Shown: one piece after another, positions 10,885 through 58,982 of the stretch
Layout of the letters: each line of letters starts with the position of its first letter
How positions within the stretch are numbered: position 1 is the stretch's first letter
Source of the DNA: an uncultured Actinomycetes bacterium
GTDB taxonomy: Bacteria > Actinomycetota > Thermoleophilia > Miltoncostaeales > Miltoncostaeaceae
Reading direction: 5' to 3'
Length of the DNA stretch: 60,978 nucleotides
Assembly (NCBI GenBank): GCA_903896045.1
Contig: CAITWD010000004.1
Location: 1 to 60,978, forward strand
Translations under genes and position numbers: made by a program
Notes under the pieces: model-generated
Seen by the model: the letters and a program-made list of their open reading frames with translations, nothing else
What the model was told of the DNA's origin: nothing
Databases searched by the model: none

Positions 10885-10887
10885 ACA

Positions 10888-10975
10888 AGCTAACCAAAGA
10901 CCCACGGGGGCGCGCCAACTGGCCGCCTGAAACCGGTCCGATTCGGACCACCCGTGCGAGGTTGGCGAGGTGCAG
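10888..10975 (+). ncRNA. ribosomal protein L10 leader (autoregulatory mRNA element)
   Basis: The rplA-rplJ gap begins GCTAACCAAAGACCCACGGG and later has CCCGTGCGAGG, resembling the conserved boxes of actinobacterial L10 leaders. GCCAAC (10914-10919) pairs with GTTGGC (10961-10966). Inside, GGTCCG (10935-10940) pairs with CGGACC (10944-10949). In other bacteria the L10-L12 complex binds this leader and represses rplJL. Family membership is judged from memory of the consensus. Confidence 0.6.
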
Positions 10976-11003: not shown

Positions 11004-11035
11004 CATTGGTCCGCGTCGATCCCGCCGGACCAATG
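11004..11035 (+). promoter_or_regulatory. rplJ: 10-bp hairpin beside the rplJ ribosome-binding site
   Basis: CATTGGTCCG (11004-11013) pairs perfectly with 11026-11035 around a 12-base loop. The AGGAGGT ribosome site begins only 4 bases later (11039). The placement suggests control of translation initiation by the L10 leader, but it is inferred. Confidence 0.5.
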
Positions 11036-11051
11036 ATGAGGAGGTGAAGCA

Positions 11052-11579
11052 CTGCGACGGGACCAAAAGGCGGACGTTATCGCCGAACTTGAAGAGCATC
11101 TTGGATCGACCAATACGATTCTCGCAGCTGACTTTCGTGGCCTAACCGTCAAAGAGCTCTCCGAACTGCGTGGTGCGCTGCGGGCGGCAAATGCCAGCCT
11201 GACCGTTGCCAAGAACACCTTGGCGCGGCGTGCAGCGAACGCCACGGGGCAAGAAGCGCTTCTGGGATTCCTGAACGGCCCGACCGGATTGGTCTGGGTC
11301 AACGGTGATCCTGCGGAGACCGCGAAGGTGCTCAATGGCTTTGCGGAACGTTTGGAGCACCTTGAGCTCAAGGGTGGCTTGCTTGACGGTCGTGAATTGT
11401 CGGCCGCGGAGCTCAATTACCTTGCGACCTTGCCGTCGCGTGACCAGTTGCTTGCGCAATTGGCGGGTGGCGTTGCAGCACCACTTCGTGGTCTTGCGGG
11501 CGCAATGAACAACATGATCACCGGGCTGGCACAAGCCCTCAACGCGTTGCACGCGCAGCGCGCGGGCGAGGGCAGCTAG
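11052..11579 (+). CDS. rplJ: 50S ribosomal protein L10, apparent CTG start
   Basis: L10 anchors the L7/L12 stalk. The conserved N-terminal part reads [14 protein letters not shown], then [26 protein letters not shown], and later LKGGLLDG and [11 protein letters not shown]. This frame is open from a TGA at 11037, but it contains no ATG, GTG or TTG before the TTG at 11220, which would delete 56 conserved residues. A strong AGGAGGT (11039-11045) lies 6 bases before CTG 11052, exactly where L10 proteins start, giving 175 residues. I therefore call a CTG initiation codon. rplL follows after 58 bases. Confidence 0.9.
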
Positions 11580-38594: not shown

Positions 38595-39857
38595 GTGTTG
38601 AAGTCGATGCTGAGCGCGCTCAGTTCACCAGAACTGCGCAAAAAGATCGGCTTCACCGCGTTTATCTTGTTGGTGTACCGGCTCGGGTCGTATGTGCCCG
38701 TGCCGGGCGTCAACTCTGCCGCGATTCAAAATGCGATTAATAGTCGTGGATCGAGCCTCGTCGGGCTGTTGAACCTTTTCGCCGGTGGTGCGTTGACCCG
38801 GTTTGCAGTCTTCGCGCTCGGGATCATGCCCTACATCACCGCAAGCATCGTCTTGCAGCTGCTGACCGTGGTGATCCCACGCCTCGAGGAGCTGCAAAAA
38901 GAGGGTGAGGCGGGGCAAGCCAAGGTCACTCAGTACACCCGGTACTTCACTGTGGCACTCGCAGCAGTGCAGTCGGTGGCATATGTCCTGTACTTCAAGT
39001 CGCAGGGCGGCCTGCCTGGGATCACTCTTGGCAAGGTCTACATCATCGCCATTTCATTGACGGCGGGGACAACCTTGGTCATGTGGTTGGGTGAATTGAT
39101 CACACAACGTGGTATCGGTAACGGCATCTCCTTGATCATTTTCGCCAACATCGTGTCATCGTTGCCCGCAGGTGTCAGCGCGTGGTTGAACCTCACCCCG
39201 ATTATTCAGATCGTGATTTTCGCGATTGCCTTGGGAGTGGTTGTTGGTGTGGTCTTCATCAATGAAGGTCAGCGCCGGATCCCGATCCAGTACGCAAAAC
39301 GAATGGTGGGGCGTCGCATGACCACCGGCGGGCAGACCTATCTGCCGCTGCGCGTGAACATGGCAGGCGTGATGCCGGTCATTTTTGCCTCGTCGGTCGT
39401 GATCTTGCCGGCGACAATTACCGAATTTGCTGGCCGCGGGTCGATTTTCCAATCGATCTCGACCTTCCTGGCGCCAGGCTCCTGGTACTACATTATTTTT
39501 GAAGGGCTTCTGATCGTGGTGTTCACCTACTTCTACACCGCCATCGTCTTCAACCCGGTTGAGCAGTCTGAGAACTTGAAAAAGAACGGTGGGTTTATTC
39601 CCGGCGTGCGTCCAGGGCGACCGACCGCGGTCTACCTTGATCGCGTGCTGACCCGATTGACCCTTCCAGGTGCTGTGTACTTGGCGTTGATCGCCATGCT
39701 GCCGAGCATTGTCTTTAAGTATCTCCCGCAGTCCAATGTGTTCTTTGGCGTGCTTGGTGGCACATCCATCCTGATTGTGGTCGGTGTCGCACTTGACACC
39801 ATCCGTCAGATGGAGGCCCAACTGATGATGCGCTCGTACGAAGGATTCCTCCGATAA
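38595..39857 (+). CDS. secY: preprotein translocase subunit SecY
   Basis: SecY is the channel of the Sec translocon. The 420-residue protein has ten membrane helices, beginning with KKIGFTAFILLVYRLGSYVPVPG. It includes the plug region LLNLFAGGALTRFAVFALGI and the cytoplasmic loops ITQRGIGNGISLIIF and GGFIPGVRPGRPTA. The GTG start has GAGGAG upstream. Its final TAA overlaps the apparent ATA start of adk. Confidence 0.97.
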   Translation: MLKSMLSALSSPELRKKIGFTAFILLVYRLGSYVPVPGVNSAAIQNAINSRGSSLVGLLNLFAGGALTRFAVFALGIMPYITASIVLQLLTVVIPRLEELQKEGEAGQAKVTQYTRYFTVALAAVQSVAYVLYFKSQGGLPGITLGKVYIIAISLTAGTTLVMWLGELITQRGIGNGISLIIFANIVSSLPAGVSAWLNLTPIIQIVIFAIALGVVVGVVFINEGQRRIPIQYAKRMVGRRMTTGGQTYLPLRVNMAGVMPVIFASSVVILPATITEFAGRGSIFQSISTFLAPGSWYYIIFEGLLIVVFTYFYTAIVFNPVEQSENLKKNGGFIPGVRPGRPTAVYLDRVLTRLTLPGAVYLALIAMLPSIVFKYLPQSNVFFGVLGGTSILIVVGVALDTIRQMEAQLMMRSYEGFLR

Positions 39858-40501
39858 CACGTCTCGTCTTTCTTGGTCCTCCCGGCGCCGGCAAGGGTAC
39901 CCAGGCGGATCGCCTCAAAGCCGAATTCACGCTCACGCATCTCGCTACGGGCGATCTGTTGCGCGAAGCAGTTGCCCAGGGCACCGATCTCGGTCGCGAG
40001 GCCAAGCGCTACATGGATGCGGGGGACTTGGTTCCCGACGCCGTGGTCATCGGAATGATTCGGGAACGCCTTTCCCCTGGCGCAGACAACTTCTTGCTCG
40101 ATGGTTTTCCGCGCACGATTGCGCAAGCACAAGCACTCGACCAGATGCTCGGGGAGCTTGACGCGCCACTCGATGCGGTCTTGGCACTGGATGTCTCACG
40201 TGAGGAACTCGTGCGTCGCCTTGCGGGCCGCTGGATTTGCCGGACCTGCAGCCGCTCATGGCATGAAGTCTTCGCCCCGCACGTGCGCGATGACGCATGT
40301 GTTGCCGTCGGTGAATGCGATCTCTATCAGCGCCCAGATGATCGTGCAGATGCGGTCGAGAATCGGTTGACGGTCTACGCCGAGAGCACTGAACCTTTGA
40401 TCGCGTACTACGCAGAGCGCGGGTTGTTGCGGGCGATTAACGGTGAGCAATCGCAAGAGCAGGTCTATGGCCAGATCGCGTCGGCCGTCACGGGCAATTA
40501 G
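39854..40501 (+). CDS. adk: adenylate kinase, apparent ATA start
   Basis: Adk interconverts ATP, ADP and AMP. The frame reads TRLVFLGPPGAGKGTQADRL at the very start (P loop), then ATGDLLREAV, LLDGFPRTIAQAQAL and a LID with CRTC. The P loop is lost if translation starts at the first ATG, GTG or TTG (39959). AAGGA at 39841-39845 sits 8 bases before ATA 39854, which overlaps the secY stop (ATAA) exactly where an ATGA overlap would be expected. I therefore call an ATA start, giving 215 residues. The LID cysteines are spaced C-x2-C and C-x5-C, not the usual paired C-x2-C. Confidence 0.9.
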   Translation: MTRLVFLGPPGAGKGTQADRLKAEFTLTHLATGDLLREAVAQGTDLGREAKRYMDAGDLVPDAVVIGMIRERLSPGADNFLLDGFPRTIAQAQALDQMLGELDAPLDAVLALDVSREELVRRLAGRWICRTCSRSWHEVFAPHVRDDACVAVGECDLYQRPDDRADAVENRLTVYAESTEPLIAYYAERGLLRAINGEQSQEQVYGQIASAVTGN

Positions 40502-54425: not shown

Positions 54426-56168
54426 TCAGGATGTTGCACGGGGAGTGCGAGTGCGGCGCGTCCGACGACGGTGTGGACGTACGATTTCCCCATCGTGGAG
54501 CGCATCGAGGAAGTCCATTCGGTCCCTGAATGGGCGCATCGCGATCCCGATGTGCCCGAGCCCTTCGCCATCGCTGGCCCCAGATCCCGCGCTGATCGTC
54601 ATGCCCAATCGCCGTGTCGTGCGCAGGGTATGGCGTTGCCCTGGGCCACTTGCAGGCCCGATGAGCTCATAACAATCAATCAGCGCGGCATGTTGGCGCA
54701 GGATGGTGGAGGAAGGAATCTCTGCACCGGCAGGGTGGGGAATGACCACCACGCCACCTTGTGCATGAATCTGGTGGGCTGTTGCGGCAAATGACAGGCC
54801 GTGTGCAACATCACGTGACACAAAGAGCGCCGTGATGACGCCATCGGCGGTCGCAATTTCCTGTCCACAGATGACCGATAGCCCATTCGGTGCTCGAGCG
54901 GCGATTGCGTTTGCCACCGACACCCCTTGCGGTGAGCTGACGGCAACCACATCGAGCCCTGATTCCCAACAGGCGGTCGCAAACTGTTGCGGGTCGGTAC
55001 CGGGGGCGGGACGAAGGCGAAGGTCCGCAATAATGCGCGCATCCTCGGGAGCCGGCCCTTCAGTGTGATGCAGGAGCGCATCGCGGTACGCCGTCTCGAG
55101 CTCACCCGCGATGTCATCCCATTGGGTGGCGGGTGAGTGTGGGTGCGTGGGCGGTGACATCTCGCGTCCGAGTTCATCGATGGCGGTGACCCATGCATCG
55201 CGCAGAAACGGGGGGACGATGATGACCCCGGCCATCTCGCTTGGCACATCGTCCGCGTCACTGCGTCCAGGCGCAATTACGGTGCGATGCCCGGCACGCG
55301 CCTGGGCGGCAACGGGGCCCTCAAGCTCCTCTGGGGTCGCGCAGAGCACGATGGATGCGTTGGTCAGAAGATCGTGCCATGACTCAGGGCCCGTGTCGGC
55401 AACCACCGTGACGCGATCCCTCAAGATCTTCGGAATTGCCGTCATGGTCCGCCATGGGGCCTCTCGAGGGCCCATCAGGGTGATGGGGACACCGTCGAGT
55501 CCAGGCAGCCGGCGCACCACCCCCAAAATGAACCTCAGCCCGGTGCGATCACGACCGCGCGCAACCAATGCGATTCCGAAGGGGGGTGTGGTTGCGGCCT
55601 CTGGACGAGTGCCCCATGGGTGCACAAGATATGTGCCCCCTAAAATTTGGGACACCGCGCGCTCCACCGTGGGTGATGTCGCGATCCGGATATCGACACG
55701 CTCGAGGGCGCGATGGACCAGCGATCCTAAAAAAGCTGCGCCGGTAATTGGATCGGGACGATGAAATGTCATTGCGGTGACGCCGGTGGCATGTCGGAGC
55801 ACAGAAAGACCGGGGGATGGCGTCAGCGGCTCATGCACGTGGACGACATCAAATCCATCGTGGCGGATGTGATGCGCGAGTTGTGATGATGCGTCAAATG
55901 GGGCAACGCCGAGCCGTGACCCTGTGCGGCGTGCGGTGCCAATGATCTCCACGCGTACCTGCTGTGGGTCCGCCTCGGTGGGAGCGGAAGAGAGCCCTGC
56001 GGTTGCGCGTGCGCGACGTCCACCAGCGCGCGCAGCGGGTGCAAAAATCGTCACGCGGTGGCCACGGCGCGCAAGCGCGTCTGCCTCTTCGTGTACACGC
56101 CAGGCGATGTCGTCTCCTGGCGGCCACGCTGTCGGACAGACGATCGCGATTGCCAGGGGTGCGCTCAG
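54426..56168 (-). CDS. PimA-like glycosyltransferase fused to degenerate PHP domain, apparent CTG start
   Basis: This 580-residue protein has a GT-B glycosyltransferase front half. IAIVCPTAWPPGDDIAWRVH (N-terminal domain), FDVVHVHEPLTPSPGLSVL and TFHRPDP resemble the acceptor domain of the phosphatidylinositol mannosyltransferase PimA. The donor side is eroded: EELEGPVAAQARAG stands where an EGFG-type motif is expected. Residues about 378-565 look like a PHP hydrolase, keeping GQEI (435-438) and PHPAG (477-481), but the HxH metal motif reads LRLR. The frame has a TAG 15 bases before CTG 56168 and no ATG/GTG/TTG until 56054. AGGAGG lies 5 bases before the CTG. Confidence 0.8.
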   Translation of the reverse strand: MSAPLAIAIVCPTAWPPGDDIAWRVHEEADALARRGHRVTIFAPAARAGGRRARATAGLSSAPTEADPQQVRVEIIGTARRTGSRLGVAPFDASSQLAHHIRHDGFDVVHVHEPLTPSPGLSVLRHATGVTAMTFHRPDPITGAAFLGSLVHRALERVDIRIATSPTVERAVSQILGGTYLVHPWGTRPEAATTPPFGIALVARGRDRTGLRFILGVVRRLPGLDGVPITLMGPREAPWRTMTAIPKILRDRVTVVADTGPESWHDLLTNASIVLCATPEELEGPVAAQARAGHRTVIAPGRSDADDVPSEMAGVIIVPPFLRDAWVTAIDELGREMSPPTHPHSPATQWDDIAGELETAYRDALLHHTEGPAPEDARIIADLRLRPAPGTDPQQFATACWESGLDVVAVSSPQGVSVANAIAARAPNGLSVICGQEIATADGVITALFVSRDVAHGLSFAATAHQIHAQGGVVVIPHPAGAEIPSSTILRQHAALIDCYELIGPASGPGQRHTLRTTRRLGMTISAGSGASDGEGLGHIGIAMRPFRDRMDFLDALHDGEIVRPHRRRTRRTRTPRATS

Positions 56169-56232: not shown

Positions 56233-57345
56233 TTATTCGCTCACAGGCCCATCGGGAGCAACAAAGCGACGGTCTTCGCCGGAGATGAACTTCTCCGTCA
56301 ATTCGCGAGCCATGTCGTCAGGGTGCTGAATCGGCGGGCTCTTCATGAAGTACGACGACGGTCCCTCGAGCGTACCTGAGATGCCGTGGTCCATCGCGAT
56401 CTTGGCGCAACGAACTGCGTCGATCACGATACCTGCCGAGTTTGGTGAGTCCCAGACCTCGAGCTTGAGCTCGATGGACATCGGCACGTCACCAAAGCCC
56501 TCACCTTCGAGGCGGATGTGTGCCCACTTGCGGTCCTTGAGCCACGGGACGTAATCGCTTGGTCCGATGTGGACGTCGTCCTTGTGGATCTTCTCGGTGA
56601 GAATTGAGGTCACCGCGTTGGTCTTGGAAATCTTCTTCGAGGCCAGACGCTCGCGCTCAAGCATGTTCAAGAAGTCGGTGTTGCCACCGAAGTTGAGCTG
56701 GCTGGTGTGCTTCAGGCGCACGCCGCGCTCATTCATCAAACGCGCGAGGGTGCGGTGCACGATTGTGGCGCCGACCTGGCTCTTGATGTCATCGCCGATG
56801 ATTGGCACGCCGTGCTCGCGGAAACGACCCTGCCAGTAGGGCTCGCGGCCGATGAAGACCGGAATGCAGTTCACGAATGCGCAGCCCGCTGCCAAGATCT
56901 GCTCGACGTACCACTTCGTGGCCTGCTCTGAGCCGACAGGCAGGTAGCTGACCACAACATGCGTGTTGGTTTCCTTGAGGATCCCAGTGATGTCTGCGGT
57001 CTCGCCAGGGGCTTTCTCGATGATTTCGCTCAAGTATTTCCCAAGGCCATCATGGGTCATACCGCGATTGACGGTCACACCGAGATTCGGCACATCCGCA
57101 AACTTGAGCGTGTTGTTCGGCGTGGAAAAGATTGCTGCCGAGAGGTCATGACCGACCTTGTTGACATCGACGTCGAACGCGGCGGTAAAGCGGATGTCAT
57201 CGATGTGGTATCCGCCCAGGTTGACATGCATGAGCCCAGGGACGAATTCGTCGGACTTTGCATTTCGGTAGTACTCGACACCCTGCACAAGTGACGATGC
57301 GCAGTTGCCGACGCCGATGATTGCGACGTTGACGGGTTCGCTCAC
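56233..57345 (-). CDS. ino1: inositol-1-phosphate synthase, actinobacterial type
   Basis: This NAD enzyme turns glucose 6-phosphate into 1D-myo-inositol 3-phosphate, the first step to inositol lipids and mycothiol. The 370-residue protein has the nucleotide-binding [54 protein letters not shown] and [13 protein letters not shown]. The short prokaryotic form is as in Mycobacterium and Archaeoglobus. The GTG start overlaps the stop of the PI-phosphate synthase gene by 4 bases, so the two steps of the pathway are coupled. Confidence 0.95.
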
Positions 57346-57968
57346 GACTCTGGACTCCCCTGATTGATTGCAGTTGCGGGCTCCGGCTGGAGAGCTCGAT
57401 AGATATGCCAGACACGGTGCACCATAGTCATCAGGCTGAGGGCCGCCAGCACGACGATCACAGCCTCAAGTACAGATCCCAGGGACCCCATAAAGATCCC
57501 TGCCCCAGTCAGCACCAGACGTTCCGGTCGGCCCATGAGCCCACCTTTATTGGAGTCAATACCCAGCCCTTCGGAACGTGCTCGGGTATAGGACACCAGA
57601 AACGATGCTGATAATGCAACAAAACATGCCGCGACAATCCATTTTTGACCATTTTCGGCAAAAGTCACACCGAGTGCTCCGAGGATGACGCCCTCTGCGA
57701 GCCGGTCAAGCGTGGAATCCAAAAACGCCCCAAATTGACTTGATCGTCCTTGGGCGCGCGCCAGGGTTCCATCTAATGAATCGGCGAGGCTAAATGCAAT
57801 GTACAAAAAGCCGGCGACGACCCACTGCCGCTCAATGATCAACCACCCCACCACGCATACCCCTGCGAAGCCCATCAGCGTCAATGCATTTGGCGAAATA
57901 TGCAGGGCATTCGCAACGCGAAGAAGTGCGCGACCGATGCTTCCGCGTGACGAAGTGGGTTGTGAAAT
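57342..57968 (-). CDS. phosphatidylinositol-phosphate synthase (CDP-alcohol phosphatidyltransferase), apparent ATT start
   Basis: This membrane enzyme joins CDP-diacylglycerol and inositol phosphate. [15 protein letters not shown] followed by [15 protein letters not shown] forms the CDP-alcohol motif D-x2-DG-x2-AR-x8-G-x3-D-x3-D. Six membrane helices follow the pattern of actinobacterial PgsA1. The first TTG (57884) would remove the conserved N-terminal helix and SPN-A-LT. No ATG, GTG or TTG lies upstream in frame. AGAGGA at 57978-57983 is 9 bases before ATT 57968, giving [19 protein letters not shown] and a 208-residue protein. A CTG three codons earlier sits too close to the ribosome site. 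Confidence 0.85.
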
Positions 57969-58002
57969 CTTTTGCAGTCCTCTGCGTGGGGATATGCCAA
58001 TC

Positions 58003-58031
58003 AGTGGAGCCGTGATGACGAGGGCTCCACT
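58003..58031 (-). promoter_or_regulatory. 9-bp leader hairpin of the PI-phosphate synthase gene
   Basis: AGTGGAGCC (58003-58011) pairs with GGCTCCACT (58023-58031) inside the predicted 5' leader, between the -10 and the ribosome site. A role in initiation or mRNA stability is possible. Confidence 0.4.
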
Positions 58032-58041
58032 GAACGAAGTT

Positions 58042-58047
58042 AGGATA
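58042..58047 (-). promoter_or_regulatory. -10 hexamer TATCCT of the inositol lipid operon
   Basis: TATCCT on the minus strand would start transcription near 58035, giving a leader of about 67 bases before the ATT start. No clear -35 is seen. It would drive the PI-phosphate synthase and ino1 genes, and perhaps the genes beyond. Confidence 0.4.
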
Positions 58048-58190
58048 GCTTGACGCGGCCGCGCGTGTGGATTTCCGCACCGAAGATCGCCATTTTTGCG
58101 CTGTTGACGTGCGTCGATAGCGGGAGTGCAGAAGATGCGCGGTGCCGAGATGGCGCGCCGAATGTAGGTGACACAACGAAGGGGTGCAGG

Positions 58191-58982
58191 GTGGCACAGG
58201 ATTCACCAGGAGCCGGCGTGGAGGAACTCATCGCGCGGGTATTGCGCAGAACGGGTTTGAGCTTTCCTCGTGGGGTGTTGACCGAGGAGGTCGCCGAGCT
58301 TGCGGTGTTGATCGGCAGCGACGTCGCGAGTGGTGCGGTCTGGGAGGACGCGCTCACCGTCGCGAGTGCGTCGATGTGGGAGCAGCTGCAGGCACCCATC
58401 GTGGCGGCGGTGAATATGCATCTCGGGCGCGCCGATGGGGATGACCGCGAGGATCTGGCGCAGGTATTGCTCCTGGCCCAGCGCTTTGACCCGACGCAAC
58501 CACTCGCACGCGCACTCACCGCACGTGCCGCGACGGAGCTTCGTGCCTCGGTCCAGTACGCAGAGGATCGGATGCGCACCGCCGAGCACGCGGTCGCCAA
58601 CGGCGGTCCGCAAGGGGCGGTCGCGGCTGCTCGCGCGCTGGGTGCGGCAGGCGTCGCCTTACTCGACCTTGATCCAGAGGACTTTGCGCCGGAAATTGTC
58701 GTCTACATCGACGCCGATCAAAGCGTTGAGGCATTGGATGAGCTTGCGCGGATCACCGGAGATGTCGAGACTCGGGCCTGGGCACGAGAGGCACTTGGGG
58801 CACTGCATGTCGCGGATGCACCCGCGGCAAGTGCCGCACTTGGCGCACTGACTGCAGGAGAAATGCCTGAGGATCCGGCCGAGGATGCAGTATGGGTCCC
58901 GGTGGTGATGGCGCTGGTCGACGAAGGTCTTGAGCGGGCCCTCGCCGAGGAAACCGCCAAGGCCCAGGCTAGTCGAGAATAA
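58191..58982 (+). CDS. hypothetical helical protein
   Basis: A 263-residue Ala- and Glu-rich, almost wholly helical soluble protein starting VAQDSPGAGVEELIARVLRR. I recognise no family; parts such as VAAARALGAAGVALLDLDPE have repeat-like helical character. The GTG at 58191 follows AAGGGG at 6 bases. The earlier GTG at 58050 would overlap the divergent promoter region. Its end overlaps the convergent glyoxalase-like gene by 14 bases. Divergence from the inositol lipid operon does not reveal a role. Confidence 0.6.
   Translation: MAQDSPGAGVEELIARVLRRTGLSFPRGVLTEEVAELAVLIGSDVASGAVWEDALTVASASMWEQLQAPIVAAVNMHLGRADGDDREDLAQVLLLAQRFDPTQPLARALTARAATELRASVQYAEDRMRTAEHAVANGGPQGAVAAARALGAAGVALLDLDPEDFAPEIVVYIDADQSVEALDELARITGDVETRAWAREALGALHVADAPAASAALGALTAGEMPEDPAEDAVWVPVVMALVDEGLERALAEETAKAQASRE

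Follow-up and report, generated by a model that had tools for sequence, protein, structure and literature searches.

A conserved CUG start codon of rplJ beside a full-length Shine-Dalgarno sequence, a probable throttle on ribosomal protein L10 in the Miltoncostaeales

The rplJ locus and its upstream region

The stretch of DNA analysed here (the window; 60,978 nucleotides) is contig C4 of a genome of 1.67 Mb in the order Miltoncostaeales (class Thermoleophilia), a draft assembly of 41 contigs that is labelled G000 in the comparisons below. It carries rplK, rplA, rplJ, rplL and rpoB in their usual order. The gene for ribosomal protein L10, rplJ, occupies positions 11052 to 11579 on the plus strand (175 codons and a stop), as judged from its translation, its Pfam match and a start position kept in 36 genomes. 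It is followed by rplL, encoding L12 (11638 to 12012, plus strand), with an ordinary ATG start in 33/33 genomes.

The L10 frame is closed upstream by tandem stops, TGA at 11034-11036 and TGA at 11037-11039, and its first in-frame ATG, GTG or TTG is the TTG at 11220, 56 codons past a CTG at 11052-11054. Starting at this TTG would cost L10 56 conserved residues, ADFRGLTV among them. The CTG aligns with the L10 start in other organisms, and the match to Pfam Ribosomal_L10 (PF00466, E=5e-26, above the cut-off) runs from 11058, i.e. from residue 3 of the CTG-read protein and position 3 of the profile. The original prediction was that L10 starts at this CTG, with no ATG, GTG or TTG ahead of 11220, 56 residues at stake, and AGGAGGT at 11039-11045 ending 6 bases ahead of the codon. 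All of these coordinates check, and the start itself is borne out by the Pfam match, by retention of CTG through the order and by the strength of the Shine-Dalgarno (SD) sequence.

The SD of the window, AGGAGGTGA (11039 to 11047, plus strand), pairs perfectly, without a break over 9 bases, with the 3' end of the 16S rRNA, which reads GGATCACCTCCTTTCT in this genome. The octamer GGAGGTGA, which matches the 16S tail in full, lies upstream of rplJ in all 34 of the loci measured, at a distance from the start of 4 bases in 31 loci, 5 bases in two loci and 6 bases in one. The rplJ SD pairs with an energy of -17.8 kcal/mol in G000 and of -17.4 kcal/mol in G020, a second genome of the order, and in both genomes this is stronger than for any of the 271 other orthologous genes compared (medians -5.6 and -5.9, respectively). 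The octamer is also present in 6/19 outgroup rplJ genes with canonical starts (the pairing energy of one outgroup gene, L130, is left out); thus, a strong SD may predate the codon change and may have permitted it. Just before the SD lies a short hairpin, ATTGGTCC...GGACCAAT (11005 to 11034, plus strand), recognised from sequence, and a tiny frame, ATG ATG AGG AGG TGA (11033-11047, plus strand), enters the SD itself; ATGAGGAGGTGA occurs in a few relatives and is absent from most. In many relatives, though not in the window, the SD could pair with a CCTCC element located roughly 35-60 bases ahead of the rplJ start.

Further upstream, a structured RNA domain (10887 to 10965, plus strand), identified by alignment and covariation, is conserved across the order about 60-95 bases ahead of the rplJ start. 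Its elements are an outer helix, a GA-rich asymmetric loop that is conserved and kink-turn-like, an inner helix that is invariant, and two hairpins. Across 26 sequences, 94.5% of cells are paired, compared with at most 48% in slid controls, and 6 of the 15 pairs have changed on both sides, in 17 cells. A search of Rfam, L10 leader model included, gave no match whether the limit on E was set to 1 or to 10, and the domain is therefore named only L10-leader-like.

Distribution of and selection on the rplJ start codon

Within the order, the sample comprises 42 genomes of one family, and the rplJ start could be read in 36 of them, covering 11 of 12 genera. The codon is CTG in 35/36 and ATA in the remaining one (G020); none has ATG, GTG or TTG at the conserved protein start. 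Alignment of rplJ starts in relatives, named as a check in the original prediction, therefore finds CTG conserved across the order. In genus g3, two genomes (L007 and L009) have an in-frame GTG 9 bases upstream of the CTG. Outside the order, the start is canonical (ATG, GTG or TTG) in 19/19 outgroup genomes from other families of the class, a few of them shifted by one to three codons, and in 74 more distant loci (ATG 73, GTG 1), so that CTG is the derived state of the order. The neighbouring genes in the order start on ATG (30) or TTG (1) for rplK and on ATG (23) or GTG (10) for rplA. When 296 actinobacterial genomes were scanned with a sequence pattern, the motif came up in this family only, but the pattern was so narrow that most members of the family were missed too, and the scan is uninformative. 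On the comparative evidence the use of CUG as the rplJ start is near certain; at the level of sequence, comparison establishes where rplJ starts, that this start is conserved, and that an SD and a leader accompany it. Within an incomplete library of papers, a literature search turned up no report of rplJ/L10 starting on CUG or CTG or of such starts in any ribosomal protein gene.

CTG is one base change away from ATG, GTG or TTG, and the number of reversions among the 36 genomes is zero. As a yardstick for start codon turnover, G000 (the whole genome bar a few kb) was compared with 400 kb of G020. In 177 gene pairs the canonical starts could be aligned exactly, and in 66 of these the two genomes use different start codons. 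A tree as long as that of rplJ (total length 7.2-7.8) would then be expected to carry about 5 replacements, and the probability of seeing none is about 0.006-0.009, a rough estimate in which rplJ is treated as an average gene. The sole change seen, from CTG to ATA in G020, took two base changes and ended on a codon still of the class that initiation rejects; the codons rejected by initiation factor IF3 include both CUG and AUA. This pattern suggests that cells keep rplJ initiation deliberately weak. Fixed switches of ancestral AUG starts to CUG are very rare (2 of 61,358), and in highly expressed genes selection normally maximises initiation (PMC5622118).

The probable explanation, in our judgement, is genuine CUG initiation of rplJ, rescued by the SD, ancestral in the order and selected as a throttle on L10. 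The 30S subunit would be positioned on rplJ by the full-length SD 4-6 bases before the codon, and an ordinary initiator tRNA would then accept CUG at a reduced rate, the weak codon-anticodon match being rescued by the SD. Several copies of L12 are required per L10, and synthesis of L10 per mRNA would in this way be held below that of the co-transcribed L12. Initiation would further respond to IF3 activity and to binding of L10(L12)n at the upstream leader. The arrangement would have arisen in the ancestor of this order of Thermoleophilia and been retained by selection. The reduced initiation rate, its sensitivity to IF3 and the stoichiometric purpose are what we infer from the comparative data. 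That the CTG start tunes L10 output is favoured because the start is non-canonical even where it has changed (ATA) and because a leader of the L10-binding type is conserved upstream. CUG initiation complexes are less stable than those on AUG, GUG or UUG (PMC11497404), and conserved AUA/AUU starts with extended SDs in S. aureus give, in reporter tests, about 10% of AUG output, and up to 30% in rich medium (PMC13009471). Against a throttle stand the in-frame GTG of L007 and L009, as a result of which CTG is not the sole option in genus g3, and the outgroups, which run the same operon on ATG, GTG or TTG. The high expression of rplJ also counts against it, since selection in such genes normally maximises initiation, as do the TTG and GTG starts of infC in the order, which lack the classical mark of IF3 self-control.

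The main rival to the throttle is a frozen accident that the SD makes tolerable, in which CUG was fixed by ancestral drift, the strong SD came earlier or compensated for it, the codon has no regulatory role and is of little consequence beside such an SD, and reversion is nearly neutral. We regard this as unlikely, though it deserves more weight than any of the alternatives considered after it. The octamer in 6/19 canonical-start outgroup rplJ genes means that the SD could have come first, and a tendency of the SD to compensate for weaker starts has been described (PMC5622118). However, nearly neutral reversion predicts that some ATG, GTG or TTG starts should be found, and none is found in 36 genomes (P about 0.01), while the one codon that did change (ATA, G020) remains in the rejected class.

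Initiation at other genes and at other rplJ codons

It is improbable that the initiation system of the order is simply relaxed, with CUG and AUA serving as ordinary starts and rplJ being nothing special. Among 303 testable, non-overlapping orthologous pairs of G000 and G020, 271 share a canonical start, and four more lie at contig ends; by inspection of the remaining 32, only rplJ and adk are without a canonical start in both genomes. The same orthologue comparison led to rejection of the idea that this genome commonly uses CTG starts. The initiator tRNA, with its CAU anticodon and its three G-C pairs, is normal, and the IF3 protein is full length; neither sequence shows any sign of an altered initiator tRNA or a degenerate IF3, and discrimination against CUG should therefore operate. 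What speaks for a relaxed system is that adk is non-canonical order-wide and that a glycosyltransferase-like gene on the minus strand has a CTG start at 56166-56168 behind AGGAGG, the latter private to this genome, with GTG at the corresponding position in the closest relatives and GTG or ATG across relatives. The initiation system is thus not generally relaxed, and two core genes, rplJ and adk, are special.

The adenylate kinase gene adk (39854 to 40501, plus strand) is the second order-wide non-canonical start and lies in the same window, although it was absent from the original prediction. Its ATA start at 39854 overlaps the secY stop, TAA at 39855-39857. Throughout the order the adk start is ATA in 29/30 genomes, overlapping the secY stop as ATAA or ATAG, and GTA in the other (G024). 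Outgroup adk genes start with ATG or GTG, and in some an ATA codon directly precedes the ATG (CTGAAATAATGGCG); loss of the ATG triplet from an arrangement of this type could be the origin of the ATA state.

Two further observations concern other loci. A gene resembling a CDP-alcohol phosphatidyltransferase (pgsA type, named by sequence only; 57345-58202, minus strand) lacks, in this genome, an obvious canonical start close to the conserved N-terminus of its product. The ARAGORN tRNA call at 1770-1854 of L181, with the anticodon TTA (stop), looks spurious.

Initiation of L10 at some other codon, whether at the TTG at 11220, by frameshift from the ATG ATG AGG AGG TGA at 11033 or at a GTG inside the SD, is very improbable. 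An ATG does run into the SD in several genomes, and two genomes have the in-frame GTG at -9, but in most genomes these ATG and GTG codons are either missing or in another frame, while CTG and the SD are constant, and the TTG would delete 56 conserved residues. The frameshift was rejected in its own right, its sequence not being conserved. A sequencing or assembly error turning ATG into CTG, which the original prediction had named as a possible refutation and which a draft assembly of 41 contigs might invite, is refuted by relatives to the point of deserving practically no weight, since CTG is found in 34 other, independent genomes, including single-contig and three-contig assemblies (L390, L391).

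Comparison with known systems

The rplJ genes of E. coli and B. subtilis start with AUG; here, in contrast, the start is CUG and the leader gives no match to the Rfam L10 leader. The likeness to those systems is a conserved, structured, kink-turn-like leader upstream of rplJ, through which, in those two species, L10(L12)4 autoregulates the gene, translationally in E. coli and by attenuation in B. subtilis (PMC10931766).

Starts other than AUG, GUG or UUG that are conserved within a lineage, with an extended SD close by, have been described in S. aureus and Bacillus, namely ccpN (AUA), cvfC1 (AUU) and infC (AUA) (PMC13009471). Those genes encode a regulator, a small protein and IF3, whereas the present case concerns a core ribosomal protein gene with CUG and an autoregulatory-type leader. 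In E. coli, the AUU start of infC, mentioned in PMC13009471, underlies IF3 autoregulation, and rplJ resembles it in being a translation gene with an IF3-discriminated start. As in the infC type, the rplJ codon stays in the IF3-rejected class even upon change (CTG 35, ATA 1). As in the S. aureus and Bacillus cases, an extended SD near the codon is conserved alongside it (GGAGGTGA in 34/34, spacer 4-6). Unlike in E. coli, the target is L10 and not IF3 itself, and infC of the order uses TTG or GTG. The association of a weaker start with a stronger, more conserved SD likewise recalls the SD compensation of suboptimal starts described by Belinky et al. 2017, although that trend concerns GUG and UUG, CUG being too rare to analyse (PMC5622118). 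The principle of a conserved non-canonical start with an extended SD is already known; unexpected here is the gene, and the case comes with conservation throughout the order and with adk as a companion.

For an essential ribosomal protein to stay on CUG throughout an order runs counter to the rule of strong starts in highly expressed, conserved genes, and weak initiation may itself be selected in a ribosomal operon. More speculatively, IF3-rejected codons may act as a permanent layer of control over core genes of growth, with supply of the ribosomal stalk tied through rplJ to free IF3 and the state of the ribosome, and adk tied to secY translation; we regard this extension as less likely than not. 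If it holds, rplJ would be, as far as known, the first ribosomal protein gene under such control; we know of no earlier ribosomal protein gene held on an IF3-rejected start across an order. In practical terms, a gene caller that accepts only ATG, GTG and TTG has no choice but to shorten the L10 of this genome by 56 residues, and in relatives it must set the starts of L10 and adenylate kinase wrongly.

The start of infC in the order is TTG or GTG in 30/30 loci read (L136-L165; in G000 on contig C22 at about 110120), never ATG, AUU or AUA, so that the classical signature of IF3 self-control is absent. The codons that follow the infC start, CCTCCTAGG, CCACCTAGG or similar, form an anti-SD-like sequence.
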